NCBI GenBank assembly: GCA_902825795.1
Contig: CADECG010000026.1
Span: 1-33,434, forward strand
Direction of reading: 5' to 3'
DNA: 33,434 nt
Origin: an uncultured Bacteroidota bacterium
GTDB taxonomy: Bacteria; Bacteroidota; Bacteroidia; Flavobacteriales_F; PHOS-HE28
Made by a program: the position numbers and the translations under genes. Below, piece after piece: positions 27,406-33,165 of this stretch. The stretch's first letter is position 1, and each line of letters opens with the position of its first letter. The notes under the pieces were generated by a model. That model had not been told where the DNA came from, did no database searches, and saw only the letters and a list, made by a program, of their open reading frames with translations.

Positions 27406-27789
27406 TTATGCCTTCTTGGCCTTGGGCTTCTTGGTGCCGTACTTGCTACGGCGCTGGTTGCGGCCCTCCACACCAGCGGTATCCAACACACCACGTACGA
27501 TGTGGTACTTCACACCGGGCAGGTCCTTAACACGACCGCCGCGCACCAGCACGATGCTGTGCTCCTGCAGGTTGTGTCCCTCGCCGCCGATGTAGGCGAT
27601 CACCTCGTACTTGTTCGTGAGGCGCACTTTGGCCACTTTCCGCAGGGCCGAGTTCGGCTTCTTCGGGGTGGTCGTGTACACCTTGGTGCACACACCACGG
27701 CGCTGCGGACAGCGCGTGAGTGCGACCGATTTGCTCGCGTAGGTTTGGCTATCGCGGCCCTTGCGGATGAGCTGTTGGATCGTTGGCAT
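27406..27789 (-). CDS. rpsL: 30S ribosomal protein S12
   Basis: S12 monitors codon-anticodon pairing in the A site. The ATG at 27789 gives 127 residues with the invariant start [14 protein letters not shown]; upstream in-frame codons reach into the leader hairpin and promoter and are rejected. The fidelity loops are wild-type in sequence: K43 in [13 protein letters not shown] and K88-D89 in [13 protein letters not shown]. These are the residues commonly changed in streptomycin-resistant mutants, and D89 is the usual RimO methylthiolation site. It is the first gene of the 33-gene operon. Confidence 0.99.
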
Positions 27790-27849: not shown

Positions 27850-27857
27850 CAAATGTA
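27850..27857 (-). promoter_or_regulatory. -7 promoter element of the ribosomal protein operon
   Basis: The minus strand reads TACATTTG, a full match to the Bacteroidota TAnnTTTG element, about 60 nt upstream of the rpsL ATG. A TTG triplet at 27873-27875 may serve as the -33 element, but the 15-nt gap is shorter than the 17-23 nt usually reported. It is placed correctly for the head of the operon. Confidence 0.55.
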
Positions 27858-27870
27858 TCCGAAGCCACCT

Positions 27871-27890
27871 TTCAACCCATCCCTGTTGAA
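27871..27890. promoter_or_regulatory. Inverted repeat overlapping the -33 region of the rpsL promoter
   Basis: TTCAAC (27871-27876) and GTTGAA (27885-27890) form a perfect 6+6 dyad with an 8-nt spacer, extendable with a one-base bulge (CCT/AGG). Its position over the -33 region suggests an operator for a dimeric regulator, or chance. It is close enough to the divergent fic gene to affect both. Confidence 0.35.
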
Positions 27891-28067
27891 GGAATTTTTC
27901 CCGGAGAGGGCCGTTGGGCCTGCGTTTTCACGGGATTATGGCCCCGCCATAAGGCGCTGCAATGCAATACAGCAAAGGGTTTCGCGCCTCGCGGCCCCAC
28001 TGCTACACCACCACCCCTATTGGTCCCAAAAAAGTGGGCGATCAGTGGCCCGCAAGACCCCCTTCGA

Positions 28068-28075
28068 TACCTTTG
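28068..28075 (+). promoter_or_regulatory. Possible -7 element of the fic-like gene
   Basis: TACCTTTG matches TAnnTTTG and lies 22 nt before the ATG at 28098. No TTG -33 element is visible at the proper spacing. The 245-nt divergent gap to rpsL is otherwise non-coding. Confidence 0.35.
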
Positions 28076-28097
28076 ATGGCATCATCTGATATCATTC

Positions 28098-29066
28098 ATG
28101 CAACCATCGAGCTATGCCTTTTACACCATGCAGAGCCGCATGCTGCATTTGCTCACTTCCATCTACCACCGGCTGGGCGAAGTGCAGGCCCGGCATCTGC
28201 AACAACCCGTGCCTGAGCTGGAACGCGCCTACCGCGTGAGCGCCGTACACGCCACGCTCGCACTGGAGGGCAACCCGCTGGAGCCCTTGCCCATTGCCGA
28301 GCTGGTGAGCCGCCCCACGTCCACCGCAGGACCCTCGGCCTTGGAGGCCGTTAACACCCAGCGCGCCCTGGAACTGCTTCCAGAGCTAGACCCCTTTACC
28401 GGCCTCGACCTTCGCCGGGCGCACGGGGTGCTGATGCACGGCCTCGCGCTGGATGCCGGCCAGTACCGCACCGGACCCATGGAAGTGGTGTATGGCGACC
28501 CACCGCCCCTGCGCATTGCACCGGCCACCAACATCCCGTACTTGGTGGAAGAGCTGCTCAACTTCGTGGAGGGCGACGATGCCCCGCCCATCATTACCAG
28601 CTGTTTGCTGCATTTCGGCTTGGTGTACCTGCGGCCGTTCACCGCGGGCAACGGCCGCATGGCGCGGCTGTGGCAGCGGCGGGTGCTCATGAAGCACTGG
28701 CCGGTGTTCGCCTTCCTGCCGGTGGAAGCCTTCATCCAGAAAACCCAGCCCACGTACTACGCCGCGTTGGAGTTCGCCGACCGGCAGGGGGACTGCGGCA
28801 GCTTCGTTACCTACCTGATGGAGCGCATGGACGAGGCCTTGGCCGAACTGCTGGCCATGCCCGATCCCGTGCGCAAAGCGGCCGACCGCATCGATCTGTT
28901 CCTGGCCCAAGCCCCCGATCGCCCCTTCCGGCGCAAGGACTACATGAACACGTTTCCAAGGCTCAGCAGCGCCAGCGCAAGTCGCGACCTGCGCGATGCC
29001 GTGGTAGCCGCGCGGTTGGTGCGGGAGGGGGATGGGAGGACGGCGGTATACCGGTGGCAGCGTTGA
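28098..29066 (+). CDS. Fic family protein with a degenerate active-site motif
   Basis: This is a 322-residue Fic-fold protein. Order of parts: N-terminal helices with an inhibitory-type motif T53-L-A-L-E57-G58 (the [S/T]xxxE[G/N] pattern that blocks ATP in regulated Fic enzymes); the Fic core (about 100-235); and a C-terminal winged-helix-like segment (about 268-322, FRRKDYMNTFPRLSSASASR then VREGDGRTAVYRW). The catalytic loop should read HPFxDGNGRxxR. Here it reads R179-P-F-T-A183-G-N-G-R187-M-A-R190, so the essential His is Arg and the metal-binding Asp/Glu is Ala. The GNGR anion-binding part is kept. The frame is intact and long, so this is not an obvious pseudogene. AMP transfer is probably lost; a DNA-binding or scaffold role is possible. 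Confidence 0.85.
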   Translation: MQPSSYAFYTMQSRMLHLLTSIYHRLGEVQARHLQQPVPELERAYRVSAVHATLALEGNPLEPLPIAELVSRPTSTAGPSALEAVNTQRALELLPELDPFTGLDLRRAHGVLMHGLALDAGQYRTGPMEVVYGDPPPLRIAPATNIPYLVEELLNFVEGDDAPPIITSCLLHFGLVYLRPFTAGNGRMARLWQRRVLMKHWPVFAFLPVEAFIQKTQPTYYAALEFADRQGDCGSFVTYLMERMDEALAELLAMPDPVRKAADRIDLFLAQAPDRPFRRKDYMNTFPRLSSASASRDLRDAVVAARLVREGDGRTAVYRWQR

Positions 29067-29099: not shown

Positions 29100-29324
29100 A
29101 TGGCCTCCATCGATCTACATGCACAAATCCGGCAGCGACTCGAAGACGTCCAAGACTGGACCATCCTCGGACGGGTGTTGAACTTCGTACGTGGGGTCAA
29201 ACAAGGTAGCGAGAACCCTTTCACCCAGAAGAATTGGCTGAGTTGGATGCCGAACACGAGAAGGCAGTCAATGGCGAAGGCCCTTCATACGCATGGGATG
29301 AAGTGAAAGCCATGGCGCGGAGGG
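29100..29324 (+). pseudogene. Frameshifted antitoxin-like remnant (addiction-module component family)
   Basis: One frame from 29100 reads MASIDLHAQIRQRLEDVQDW...GSENPFTQK and then loses sense. A second frame, one base off from about 29231, continues ELAELDAEHEKAVNGEGPSY and AWDEVKAMARR. Joined, they look like a small antitoxin: an N-terminal helix followed by the ELD...W-x-EV ending common in addiction-module component proteins. A one-base deletion near 29229-29231 would explain the break. The second frame then runs on without a proper stop. Neither piece alone resembles a complete protein. The family assignment rests on pattern recognition only, and a sequencing error is possible. Confidence 0.4.
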
Positions 29325-29366
29325 ATGAGCCATCGGCTGGTGGTAAGTCCAAAGGTAGCCGAGCTG
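29325..29366 (+). pseudogene. Possible ParE/RelE toxin N-terminal fragment
   Basis: An ATG in an ATGA context at 29325 starts MSHRLVVSPKVAEL, which resembles the first strand and helix of RelE/ParE-type toxins (YRLVVSPxAxxxL). After about 14 residues the similarity vanishes into low-complexity sequence, so only a stub would remain. It lies exactly where a toxin would follow the antitoxin-like remnant. Very short; treat as a hint. Confidence 0.2.
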
Positions 29367-29448: not shown

Positions 29449-32400
29449 ATGGACTTGCTCTGCCGTCGCCATATTGTTCTGACCCTCGTCGGGATTTTCT
29501 TGAGTGCCTTGGTCAGGGCGCAGTTTTCTCCGATCCACGACGTTAGTACCGAGGACAACATTATTGAAGCAACGGTGGCAGCGGACATCGACGGCGACTC
29601 TAACGTTGACATTGTGTATTGCGACTACCACACTGTTTACTGGGCACCAAACATTGGTAACGGAAGGTTCATCACACCTCGTATTGTCACGACAGAACAT
29701 GGCATGGGGTCGAGTGTCACTCGATTGTTCGTGGAGGATATTGACGTCGATGGCGATGTTGACATAGCCATCTCAACCATTCCCTCCATGTGGATAGATA
29801 CCATGTTGTCGATTTACCAGAACGACGGTCTTGGCAATTTCATTCAGGTATTCTCTATCACCCAACCCAGCTGGAACCACAGATTTGCAGACTTGGATAC
29901 AGATGGACTAGTGGACTTGTACTTCGAAGACACGATGAACATAATGTGGATGTCAAGCATTGGAAACTGTTCATTTGACAATGCTCAAATTCTTCATTCC
30001 GATTCCATTTCCGTCAAGCACATCGCATCGGGCGATTTCGATTTAGATGGTGACATCGATTTGCTGGGCCGTTCCATCCATTTTGATTATAGTCAAACTC
30101 TGTATCTGCTTCACAATGACGGGAACGCAGGGATGACTGCGACTGAGATACTCCTCGATACACTTCCCGCGAAATACGTTTCTGAAGATTATACCGGTGA
30201 TGGTTATCCAGATTTTTTGGCCGTTAGACAAACTGCTGGCATATCCATTTTCGTGAATGACAGCTTCGGCGCTTTTGATTCCACCATAGTTGTGGCAGCG
30301 ACCTCCAACAGCCTAATTCACGCCTCTTCAGTTGACATTGATCAAGATGGCGATCTCGATCTGTACACTACGAACAATAGTGGCAACACTTATGCGCACA
30401 TCAATGACGGTGGTGGACAGTATCAACAGGCGATACCTCAAGGAGGTGACTATCAGTTCAGACTGATTAACGACCTCGATGGTGATGGCCACTTGGACGC
30501 CATCGGAACTGCGTGTTGGCGGAGAAACTCTGGCACTATCACAGGGAGCTTTCCACGCCGCTTTTCTGTTGTACCTCTAATCGGATCATGCCAGGTCCCC
30601 GCCTACGCAGGCTATGCACCGGTGGACCTCGACCAAGACGGCCACCTGGACCTGGTCAGCACGTCTGACTGCACAAGGATGGTTGCCTGGTTAAGAGACA
30701 CAGGAGACCAACGCTTCGACCAGTTCGCGCCGCTAGCCTATCTTGATGCGGCGAATGTTGCAACAGGCGATGTGGATGGTGATGGTGATCTTGATGTACT
30801 AAGCACAGCAAGTTGCCAGAGTTCGCCTGACAGCACCTTCATCAATTGGTTGGAAAACAATGGTACGCCTCACCATTGGCCCGTACACTACATCCCCACC
30901 TCGCACCTGATCAATCAAGTATTGTCTGTCGACATGGACCTTGACGGCGATTCCGATATCGTCGCTCAAGCTTGCGTGGCCGATTCGGCCATTTCCATAC
31001 ATATGAACAGTGGTGGGGGGCAATTCACCGAAATGGGTCCCTTCGCTTCACTCGCTACGATTTCAGCCTGGCACGTGGGCGATATGAACGGGGATGCCTT
31101 CCCGGATCTGGTTGCTGCGGATTTTACCGCTCAGGTAGTGGTGTGGTACCCTGGTGATGGAAGTGGCAGTTTGTTGCCGGCTCTGGTCATCAACGCGTAC
31201 GATACGCTCATCACAAGTCTACATGCTGCCGATATCGATAGCGACCTTGACATGGATATCGTCACTAACTCGGCTAACCTCGATTCCGGCTGCTGGGTCA
31301 TGATGTACATCAACGACGGTGGGGGCAACTTCAACTCCGTTCGTCTTCATCGTCCCGCGTGGGATGATGCCGACCTCATGGTAGGTGACATCAACGGTGA
31401 TCTTCGACCGGACCTAGCCGTAGATTGGGTTGCCGTCATGTTGAATGACAGCGTTCAGAGCTTCACAGAGCATGTTCAGACGGGGGTCAACTATGCCGAC
31501 TTTTTGCTCGATGTGGATGGCGATGGGGATAATGATGCCTTCACTTTGGGCTCCGATGCTATTCATTGGCAGGAGAATTTCTTTGGGAGTCCGTATCGAT
31601 TTACAGGTAGTATATTTTTTGACGTCGACATGAACGGTGTTTTTGACTCCACGGATGTTCCGATGGGATCTGCGATCATTGAAAGCAGTCCGCAAGCCAG
31701 CTACGCCTACACGGACACCTCCGGGCATTACGTTGTCTATGCTGATTCTGGCAGCTATGTCGTCACGCATTTATTCGATACGGCTCTATGGAACCTCAGT
31801 TCGGACAGTATCGAGTACCACGTAGCCCTTACCAGTCTTGACCCTATCGCTACTGGGGTCGATTTCGGTATCACACCGTCATACCCCGCCACCTTGGTGC
31901 GACCCAGCCTGGTTCCTGGGTTGGACGTCTGCGGTGGCCCTACTACCTACTTCTTTTCTTGGCAGAACAGGGGGAACACGATCTGCGACGGGTGGGTAAT
32001 GCTTGAACTGGATTCCCTGTTGGTGCCCGATAGCATAGCCCCGCCACCCGACTCGATCGTAGGGCAGCGCTACTACTGGTCATATGAGGACCTCTTCTTT
32101 TACGAGGACGTGCGGACGAGGCTATACGTGACCTCTCCCTCTGCTGACAACATCGGGGAATGGCTTGAGTGCGCCATGTCGATCGCGGTTACCGACTCGC
32201 AAGGCGTCGTTGTCGAGCAGTTCGATTCGCTATGGACGCGCCAGATTACGTGCTCCTTTGACCCGAATGACAAGCAAGTTGCCCCTGCGGGGTTCGGCTC
32301 GTTCGGGGCGGTTGACATGGATACTGAATGGCTCGATTACACGATCCGGTTCCAGAATACGGGAAATGACACTGCATACACCGTTATGCTCAGGGATTCG

Positions 32401-33165
32401 ATAAGCGATCGATTGGATGTTGCATCCATTTGTGACTTCGCCTCCTCACATACCATCTCATCGATGAACATCGAGCAAGACCGGGAGCTGGTGGCCCGGT
32501 TTGAGAACATCATGCTGCCGGACAGTGGTACGAACCAAGCCGGTAGCCAGGGCTTCTTGTCGTTCCGCGCACGGGTACTCCCGGGATTAGCAAGTGGCTC
32601 AAGCATTACGAACCGCGCCTACATCTATTTTGATTACAACGCACACGTGATTACGAACACAGCGATGACCACTTTGGTGGACTGCGACCTTTTCGATGTT
32701 GGGGTCATGCTGGAGGACTCTGGAATACTGGTGGCTTCCGCAGCCATGTCCTATCAATGGATGCTGAACGGCGTGCCCATACCGAATGCCCAACAGGATG
32801 TACTGGCACCGACGATGCCGGGTAGCTATTCCGTGTCAGCCATAGATGTCTTCGGGTGCCAAGACACGAGCGCTTCCGTTGTGGTCACGGGCATCGAAGA
32901 CCCGCAGCAACCGTCGGTTGCGATCGTTGTATTCCCAAACCCCTCGAACGGTGATTTTGATGTTCTTGTCCGTTCCAGTGGAGACGTGGATGCAATGTTG
33001 GAATGTCTCGATGCTCAAGGTCGGCTCGCTTACCGGGGGCAAATTGTTGGTCAGAGCTCACAGAGAGTCCGTCTACGTGGCTTACAACCTGGTCTGTATC
33101 TTGTCCGATTGTTGAGTGGCCAGTCCTCACACGTTTCACGCGTTATAGTTGTTGCCGGTCCTTAG
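29449..33165 (+). CDS. Giant secreted FG-GAP/VCBS-repeat protein with T9SS type A sorting domain
   Basis: The protein is 1238 residues. A signal peptide (MDLLCRRHIVLTLVGIFLSA...VRAQ) is followed by a repeat region (about 40-700) with 14 calcium-binding Asp motifs of the type DIDGDSNVDI, DVDGDGDLDV and DLDQDGHLDL, as in VCBS/FG-GAP beta-propellers. Next come an SdrD-B-like domain (about 719-790; GSIFFDVDMNGVFDSTDVPM), a domain with the Bacteroidota motif CSFDPNDKQV (about 934-1075) ending in IYFDYNAHVITNTA, and an Ig-like segment (about 1102-1150; YQWMLNGVPI). Last is a type A sorting domain (about 1161-1238; VFPNPSNGDF). It should be exported by the T9SS and displayed on or released from the surface, probably as an adhesin or matrix protein. 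Its composition looks more AT-rich than the ribosomal cluster. Confidence 0.9.
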   Translation: MDLLCRRHIVLTLVGIFLSALVRAQFSPIHDVSTEDNIIEATVAADIDGDSNVDIVYCDYHTVYWAPNIGNGRFITPRIVTTEHGMGSSVTRLFVEDIDVDGDVDIAISTIPSMWIDTMLSIYQNDGLGNFIQVFSITQPSWNHRFADLDTDGLVDLYFEDTMNIMWMSSIGNCSFDNAQILHSDSISVKHIASGDFDLDGDIDLLGRSIHFDYSQTLYLLHNDGNAGMTATEILLDTLPAKYVSEDYTGDGYPDFLAVRQTAGISIFVNDSFGAFDSTIVVAATSNSLIHASSVDIDQDGDLDLYTTNNSGNTYAHINDGGGQYQQAIPQGGDYQFRLINDLDGDGHLDAIGTACWRRNSGTITGSFPRRFSVVPLIGSCQVPAYAGYAPVDLDQDGHLDLVSTSDCTRMVAWLRDTGDQRFDQFAPLAYLDAANVATGDVDGDGDLDVLSTASCQSSPDSTFINWLENNGTPHHWPVHYIPTSHLINQVLSVDMDLDGDSDIVAQACVADSAISIHMNSGGGQFTEMGPFASLATISAWHVGDMNGDAFPDLVAADFTAQVVVWYPGDGSGSLLPALVINAYDTLITSLHAADIDSDLDMDIVTNSANLDSGCWVMMYINDGGGNFNSVRLHRPAWDDADLMVGDINGDLRPDLAVDWVAVMLNDSVQSFTEHVQTGVNYADFLLDVDGDGDNDAFTLGSDAIHWQENFFGSPYRFTGSIFFDVDMNGVFDSTDVPMGSAIIESSPQASYAYTDTSGHYVVYADSGSYVVTHLFDTALWNLSSDSIEYHVALTSLDPIATGVDFGITPSYPATLVRPSLVPGLDVCGGPTTYFFSWQNRGNTICDGWVMLELDSLLVPDSIAPPPDSIVGQRYYWSYEDLFFYEDVRTRLYVTSPSADNIGEWLECAMSIAVTDSQGVVVEQFDSLWTRQITCSFDPNDKQVAPAGFGSFGAVDMDTEWLDYTIRFQNTGNDTAYTVMLRDSISDRLDVASICDFASSHTISSMNIEQDRELVARFENIMLPDSGTNQAGSQGFLSFRARVLPGLASGSSITNRAYIYFDYNAHVITNTAMTTLVDCDLFDVGVMLEDSGILVASAAMSYQWMLNGVPIPNAQQDVLAPTMPGSYSVSAIDVFGCQDTSASVVVTGIEDPQQPSVAIVVFPNPSNGDFDVLVRSSGDVDAMLECLDAQGRLAYRGQIVGQSSQRVRLRGLQPGLYLVRLLSGQSSHVSRVIVVAGP

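Follow-up and report, generated by a model that had tools for sequence, protein, structure and literature searches.

A clade-wide Fic pseudoenzyme, probably an autorepressor, encoded beside the ribosomal-protein array in an order of Bacteroidota

In the order Flavobacteriales_F of the Bacteroidota, a Fic protein has lost both of its catalytic positions throughout the lineage and has kept its fold, a predicted DNA-binding domain and a putative operator in its own promoter. The gene was studied in a window of 33,434 nucleotides (the whole stretch of DNA analysed, from an uncultured member of the order). The clade-fixed Fic pseudoenzyme is real, and the sequence evidence that its gene is autoregulated is strong. 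The explanation that best accounts for the data as a whole, a non-catalytic Fic pseudoenzyme acting as an autorepressor, is judged probable, with considerable room left for error. An apparent tie of this gene to the adjoining ribosomal-protein array is unexpected and notable. The features on which the argument rests are listed in Table 1.

Table 1. Position and basis of the features discussed, numbered from the first letter of the window.
Feature	Position	Strand	Basis or remark
rpsL (S12)	27406..27789	-	divergent from pseudo-fic; heads co-directional str-S10-spc-alpha array
rpsL promoter -7 box TACATTTG	27850..27857	-	232 bp from operator core (28082-28089)
pseudo-fic promoter -7 box TACCTTTG (Bacteroidota TAnnTTTG)	28068..28075	+	upstream alignment
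Putative palindromic operator ATGGCATCA-TC-TGATATCAT, 20 bp	28076..28095	.	profile score, orthologue conservation
pseudo-fic gene, 322 aa, Fic domain and C-terminal winged helix	28098..29066	+	uninterrupted ORF, PF02661
Former inhibitory motif T53-L-A-L-E57-G58	28254..28271	+	translation, orthologue alignment
Altered FIC loop R179-P-F-T-A-G-N-G-R-M-A-R190 = LRPFTAGNGRMARL	28632..28667	+	translation, orthologue alignment
Predicted C-terminal winged helix, about residues 259-322	28872..29063	+	AlphaFold2 secondary structure

Membership of the Fic/Doc (Fido) family is indicated by a Pfam match to PF02661 (Fic/DOC) over residues 104-194, at 47 bits against a cut-off of 24, and by Foldseek matches to 4rgl, SoFic and FICD. 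Active Fic AMP-transferases carry the motif HPFx[D/E]GNGRxxR, in which the first residue is the catalytic His and the Asp/Glu holds Mg2+; those of class II also have an N-terminal inhibitory helix, [S/T]xxxE[G/N], ahead of the Fic core. A sequence-only reading of this DNA had described an intact 322-residue frame with the loop RPFTAGNGRMAR and TLALE57G upstream, and translation bears this out, except that the interval which it gave for the loop begins one codon early, at L178 (the Arg179 codon is 28632-28634). Three residues of the loop are substituted, namely His to Arg at 179, Asp to Ala at 183 and Gly189 to Ala, while GNGR and R190 are retained. Of 39 distinct variant orthologues, 38 have Arg at position 179 and one has Cys, and position 183 is Ala in every sequence, so that neither the catalytic His nor the metal-binding Asp/Glu remains in any of them, as had been supposed for this one protein. 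Position 190 is Arg in 39/39, and the phosphate-binding GNGR with its second Arg is preserved (R187 and R190 invariant), with a single GNAR exception (L027). In the 17 canonical relatives that were compared, the columns 179, 183, 190 and 57 hold His, Asp, Arg and Glu with no exceptions. Ten positions are switched between the canonical and variant groups, including H179R, D183A and G189A, and switches in the flap region are I130V and P141A. Work on EfFIC describes the His as critical to nucleophilic attack and to AMP transfer, and in that protein either H111A or E115A, the latter altering the acid of the FIC motif, abolishes deAMPylation (PMC6408439). By these mutants, the loss of both residues argues against both canonical reactions, and AMP transfer and its reversal should be gone.

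The inhibitory helix of class II is recognisable as TLALEG at residues 53-58, although one subclade has another residue, mostly Asp, in place of G58. Position 57 is Glu in 38 of the 39 variants and Asp in the other, and Glu in 17/17 canonical relatives. The retention of this Glu had been noted from the single sequence, and found odd in a protein with nothing left to inhibit; the retention holds across the order, and the oddity is eased. In known Fic proteins the inhibitory Glu forms its salt bridge with an Arg of the FIC motif, namely the second one of GNGRxxR, which here is R190. Since this partner is also invariant (39/39), Glu57 is not an orphan, and the E57-R190 pair may have been retained for a structural role or as a contact that gates nucleotide.

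The variant is widely distributed. Full-length orthologues, with 57-81% identity and no stops, occur in 40 of a sample of 45 genomes from the order, which represent one family and one genus, and an orthologue is present in 29 of the 30 good assemblies. In three of the genomes with no fic match (G003, G063 and G064) rpsL is also missing from the assembly, so the locus is absent from the data, and in a fourth (G067) a contig end interrupts it; G014 alone has rpsL without fic. Canonical HPFxDGNGR relatives are found throughout the class, and the RPFxAGNGR variant forms one clade (support 100/100) for which one change is needed, which places the origin of the substitution once, before the radiation of the order. 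A recent loss, entertained from the single sequence, is thus contradicted. Pairwise dN/dS of the gene lies between 0.05 and 0.17, and the segment 179-194 has the lowest mean pN of nine segments (0.007, against 0.04-0.18 elsewhere). Arg179 is encoded by CGG, CGC, CGT, CGA or AGG in different orthologues; with five Arg codons in use, the residue is held while its codon turns over. Judged by the single-clade origin, the low dN/dS and the synonymous turnover at Arg179, both substitutions are old and actively kept by purifying selection. Recurrence of RPFxAGNGR across a clade under such selection had been proposed as a check on the pseudoenzyme idea, and it is what the 40 genomes display; the alternative of a single degraded gene among relatives that all have HPFxDGNGR fails inside the order.

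An AlphaFold2 model built with 33 orthologues (pLDDT 89.5, pTM 0.86) has a helical Fic core, a flap hairpin and a C-terminal winged helix, in line with the earlier expectation that fold and winged helix remain. The elements predicted for the winged helix are helices 261-271, 279-285 and 291-303 and strands 307-310 and 317-320, with the recognition helix placed around SASASRDL. The residues RKDY and A-x-A-S-R-D-L of this domain are common to the canonical relatives bearing the same operator, which have ATASRDL. Foldseek ranks 4rgl first, followed by 7cb8, 7xux, CbFic2, FICD and SoFic, so that a C-terminal HTH is predicted both by the model and by full-length matches to Fic-HTH structures. Dde_2494 of Desulfovibrio (4rgl) is the best match by sequence (E 5e-39) and by fold (E 3e-17), nearly over the full length. 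It differs in having a canonical motif, HPFADGNGRMGR; in the alignment over residues 2-265, its H-P-F-A-D-G-N-G-R faces R-P-F-T-A-G-N-G-R.

When the upstream DNA of the orthologues is aligned at the start codon, a TA[CT]CTTTG box, a palindrome and the start codon follow each other in this order, and the TA and TTTG of the box are invariant across the aligned set. Flavobacterial -7 boxes lie at -12 to -5 (PMC9723704), and transcription is therefore predicted to start at about 28080, inside the palindrome. The consensus of the palindrome across the class is GATAGTATCA-AA-TGATACTATC. It is carried by nearly all variant orthologues and by most canonical relatives, and most of those of other families have a near-perfect copy at the same location. 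In the variant clade the palindrome is imperfect, with 67% of pairs complementary, and the copies of G006 and G031 are weak. The operator profile holds 37 bits of information. A leave-one-out profile made from 22 other genomes, covering the -7 box and the palindrome, scores 42 bits at 28068-28096, compared with 11 for the next site of the window and 12.3 for the best of 30 simulated windows. A reading as an RNA element instead of a DNA operator is disfavoured by the predicted transcription start inside the palindrome and by the lack of an Rfam family.

When 44 genomes of the order are scanned with the profile, strong sites (E < 0.003) occur only at pseudo-fic, at a canonical paralogue or at an orphan position by ruvB. 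The canonical paralogue lies beside ruvB in two genomes only (G016 and G029), and where they carry it G066 has an orphan operator behind ruvB (L108, C1:650822), which appears to be the scar of a deleted paralogue. A larger regulon was considered and rejected, since the strong sites are confined to fic genes or to the orphan site of the apparently deleted copy. Some further operator-like palindromes were seen away from fic genes, in G060 (L103) and in G017 (L115), the latter just upstream of an unrelated-looking 124-aa ORF, and in G245 (L101) the palindrome sequence stands twice upstream of a canonical fic gene. Autoregulation without a regulon is the simplest reading of the conserved promoter palindrome and the predicted C-terminal winged helix, and the palindrome lends independent sequence-based backing to the earlier guess that the protein is a transcription regulator, a guess made with no mention of the palindrome or of the adjoining rpsL.

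In the mechanism that we favour, the starting point is a Fic protein of class II bearing a winged helix at its C-terminus, and in the ancestor of the order this protein would have become a non-catalytic regulator. The winged helix, as a dimer, would bind the palindrome and repress the protein's own promoter, and the Fic domain, without AMP transfer, would serve as a domain for dimerisation and for binding a ligand or partner. In known Fic proteins GNGR and the second Arg bind phosphates; to judge by the motif residues, GNGR, R179 and R190 could form an anion pocket, probably for a nucleotide phosphate. The retained E57-R190 contact would gate this pocket, and its occupancy would alter DNA binding.

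Known systems offer partial precedents. CccR of Yersinia pseudotuberculosis is a class II Fic protein with a C-terminal HTH that represses its own promoter via a palindrome, and its H192A mutant, in which the catalytic His is lost, still restores DNA-dependent repression (PMC9755527). The present protein shares with it the class, the C-terminal HTH (here predicted) and a palindrome in its own promoter (here identified by sequence), and the CccR half-site ATGATAATCT resembles ATGATACTATC of the pseudo-fic operator (PMC9755527). Unlike pseudo-Fic, which has no active FIC motif, CccR has one, AMPylates FtsZ and is secreted by a T6SS; its half-sites are 26 bp apart and those of pseudo-fic adjacent, and the available part of the CccR report mentions no linkage to a ribosomal operon (PMC9755527). 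CbFic2 of Coxiella burnetii (PDB 8cil) likewise joins a Fic domain with a DNA-binding HTH; DNA induces it to dimerise, and its inhibitory Glu and HTH influence each other. Deletion of the HTH raises ATP affinity much as mutation of the inhibitory Glu does, from which it follows that pocket and HTH communicate (PMC10628234). It differs in being an active AMPylase and de-AMPylase with His205 and a eukaryotic histone target (PMC10628234). BepC, one of the Bartonella Bep proteins whose Fic domains have non-canonical motifs, is thought to act by binding, and no enzymatic activity has been found for it; however, it keeps the catalytic His (H146) and is a host-targeted effector without HTH or operator (PMC8401265). 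In Doc subfamily D2 the catalytic His is replaced clade-wide, by Gln, but these proteins are single-domain, keep the Asp/Glu and NKR and have no winged helix (PMC4454073).

The neighbourhood of the gene is constant on one side only. On the minus strand of the window rpsL is followed by rpsG, fusA, rpsJ and rplC and, further on, by rpoA and rplQ, down to 9757, a str-S10-spc-alpha array of 18 kb. The divergent arrangement of rpsL and pseudo-fic is found in 34 of the 34 flanks read, and the opposite side of the gene is variable. In many members of the order fic has a pcrA-like gene downstream of it, and in the outgroup G038 rpsL is divergent from a pcrA-like helicase gene with no fic between them, so fic was probably inserted between rpsL and pcrA. 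One contig of G016 (C18) carries, at L042:4801-5380, a fragment of a pcrA-like N-terminus fused to a fragment of a pseudo-fic C-terminus, relics of a duplication of the fic-pcrA region. Downstream of pseudo-fic in the window are a short, apparently frameshifted ORF without significant Pfam match (29100-29340) and a secreted-type protein with eleven FG-GAP repeats, DUF7619 and a type IX secretion tail (29449-33165). A search of genome contigs gave one distant locus as its sole match.

Operator core and rpsL -7 box are 229-234 bp apart in 23 genomes, 216-219 bp in nine, and 205 and 241 bp once each, with an SD of about 1 bp per clade if one outlier each (205 and 241) is left out. About 160 bp between the operator and the rpsL promoter are at background identity in most equal-length pairs, with a median of 29% against some 26% expected from base composition. 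In the same order, length SDs are 52 bp for secG-groES (15 without the three longest) and 22 bp for groES-groEL, two intergenic stretches that served as controls, neither of them a divergent pair. Two genomes, G007 and G027, have a fic start codon shifted 100-150 bp away and have lost the -7 box, and in both the operator still lies at 231-232 bp. This near-fixed spacing over randomised DNA, and the position kept in these two genomes, suggest that the operator is of importance on the rpsL side. The stretch 27850-28095 might be viewed as a length-constrained divergent promoter region with randomised intervening DNA. Because of the fixed distance, the bound protein is proposed to adjust transcription of the adjoining array as well, a more tentative claim than autorepression and, at present, a rather doubtful one. 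Similarly speculative is the fuller version, in which pseudo-Fic would be a nucleotide-responsive regulator of the fused str-S10-spc-alpha array and its former AMP-transferase pocket would report nucleotide state to ribosome synthesis.

The same spacing could quite plausibly, if short of an even chance, reflect a stable neighbourhood in which indels are rare for some other cause, e.g. an unrecognised element or supercoiling coupling of the two promoters, rather than control by the protein. In a profile scan of the window no second operator was found in the vicinity of the rpsL promoter. Some 95-130 bp from the operator there is a faint zone rich in AT, which might belong to such an element. 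However, a Gibbs motif search of the stretch of about 160 bp gave only motifs of close relatives, the operator-rpsL region matches no Rfam family, and the operator distance in G007 and G027 is kept though the fic promoter box is lost. An operator some 230 bp upstream of the rpsL promoter is far for simple repression, and since G014 has rpsL without fic the gene is not strictly needed for rpsL expression. An inverted repeat, CCTTTCAAC-N8-GTTGAAGG, lies just upstream of the rpsL -7 box at 27868-27892 and in many genomes of the order, and G014 keeps a similar one.

As to the protein itself, RPFxAGNGRxAR might perform some other transfer with Arg179 in place of His, the DNA-binding part controlling dosage as for a toxin-like enzyme. 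The near-invariance of Arg179 and Ala183 is as compatible with a new active site as with a dead one. There is a known Doc clade in which Gln takes the place of His (PMC4454073), and Campylobacter fetus has a toxic Fic protein, Fic2, whose motif is degenerate (PMC5651007). Toxic genes are, moreover, typically autoregulated, and the 44-genome scan found no regulon outside the gene's own promoter. Fic2, though, keeps its His, which is required for toxicity (PMC5651007), whereas here catalytic base and metal ligand are both lost, and the flanks of the orthologues contain no conserved antitoxin-like or other partner gene downstream; an enzyme of this kind is unlikely. Less likely again is a decoy or antitoxin, a dead protein that blocks AMP transfer by attaching itself to active Fic proteins or to their targets. 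Neutralisation of one Fic protein by another is documented in Campylobacter fetus (PMC5651007), and many genomes encode several Fic/Doc proteins, including G000 (HPFLDGNGR and HPFDDGNGR). Pseudo-Fic is, however, the sole Fic/Doc match in the near-complete genomes G028 (99%), G059 (97%), G011 (95%) and G033 (94%), so a partner Fic is not needed and an antitoxin role is unlikely to be general, and the ruvB-adjacent paralogue was found in two genomes only and seems to have been deleted in G066, where its operator is left. That the gene is merely decaying after recent inactivation, as the loss of both catalytic residues might suggest, is refuted by the 40 stop-free orthologues, the purifying selection with synonymous turnover at Arg179, the single ancient origin and the conserved operator.

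Non-canonical FIC motifs are already known. The literature search returned no paper on an RPFxAGNGR form of Fic, none that ties a Fic domain to rpsL, and no Fic-HTH protein lacking both the His and the metal acid lineage-wide yet keeping its DNA-binding domain and operator. Together with those canonical relatives across the class that share its operator, the non-catalytic autorepressor would complete a clean evolutionary series from an autoregulated enzyme to a dedicated regulator, for which the analysis supplies an exact candidate DNA site (28076-28095). If the link to rpsL is true, the protein would be a DNA-binding regulator for ribosomal-protein synthesis in Bacteroidota.
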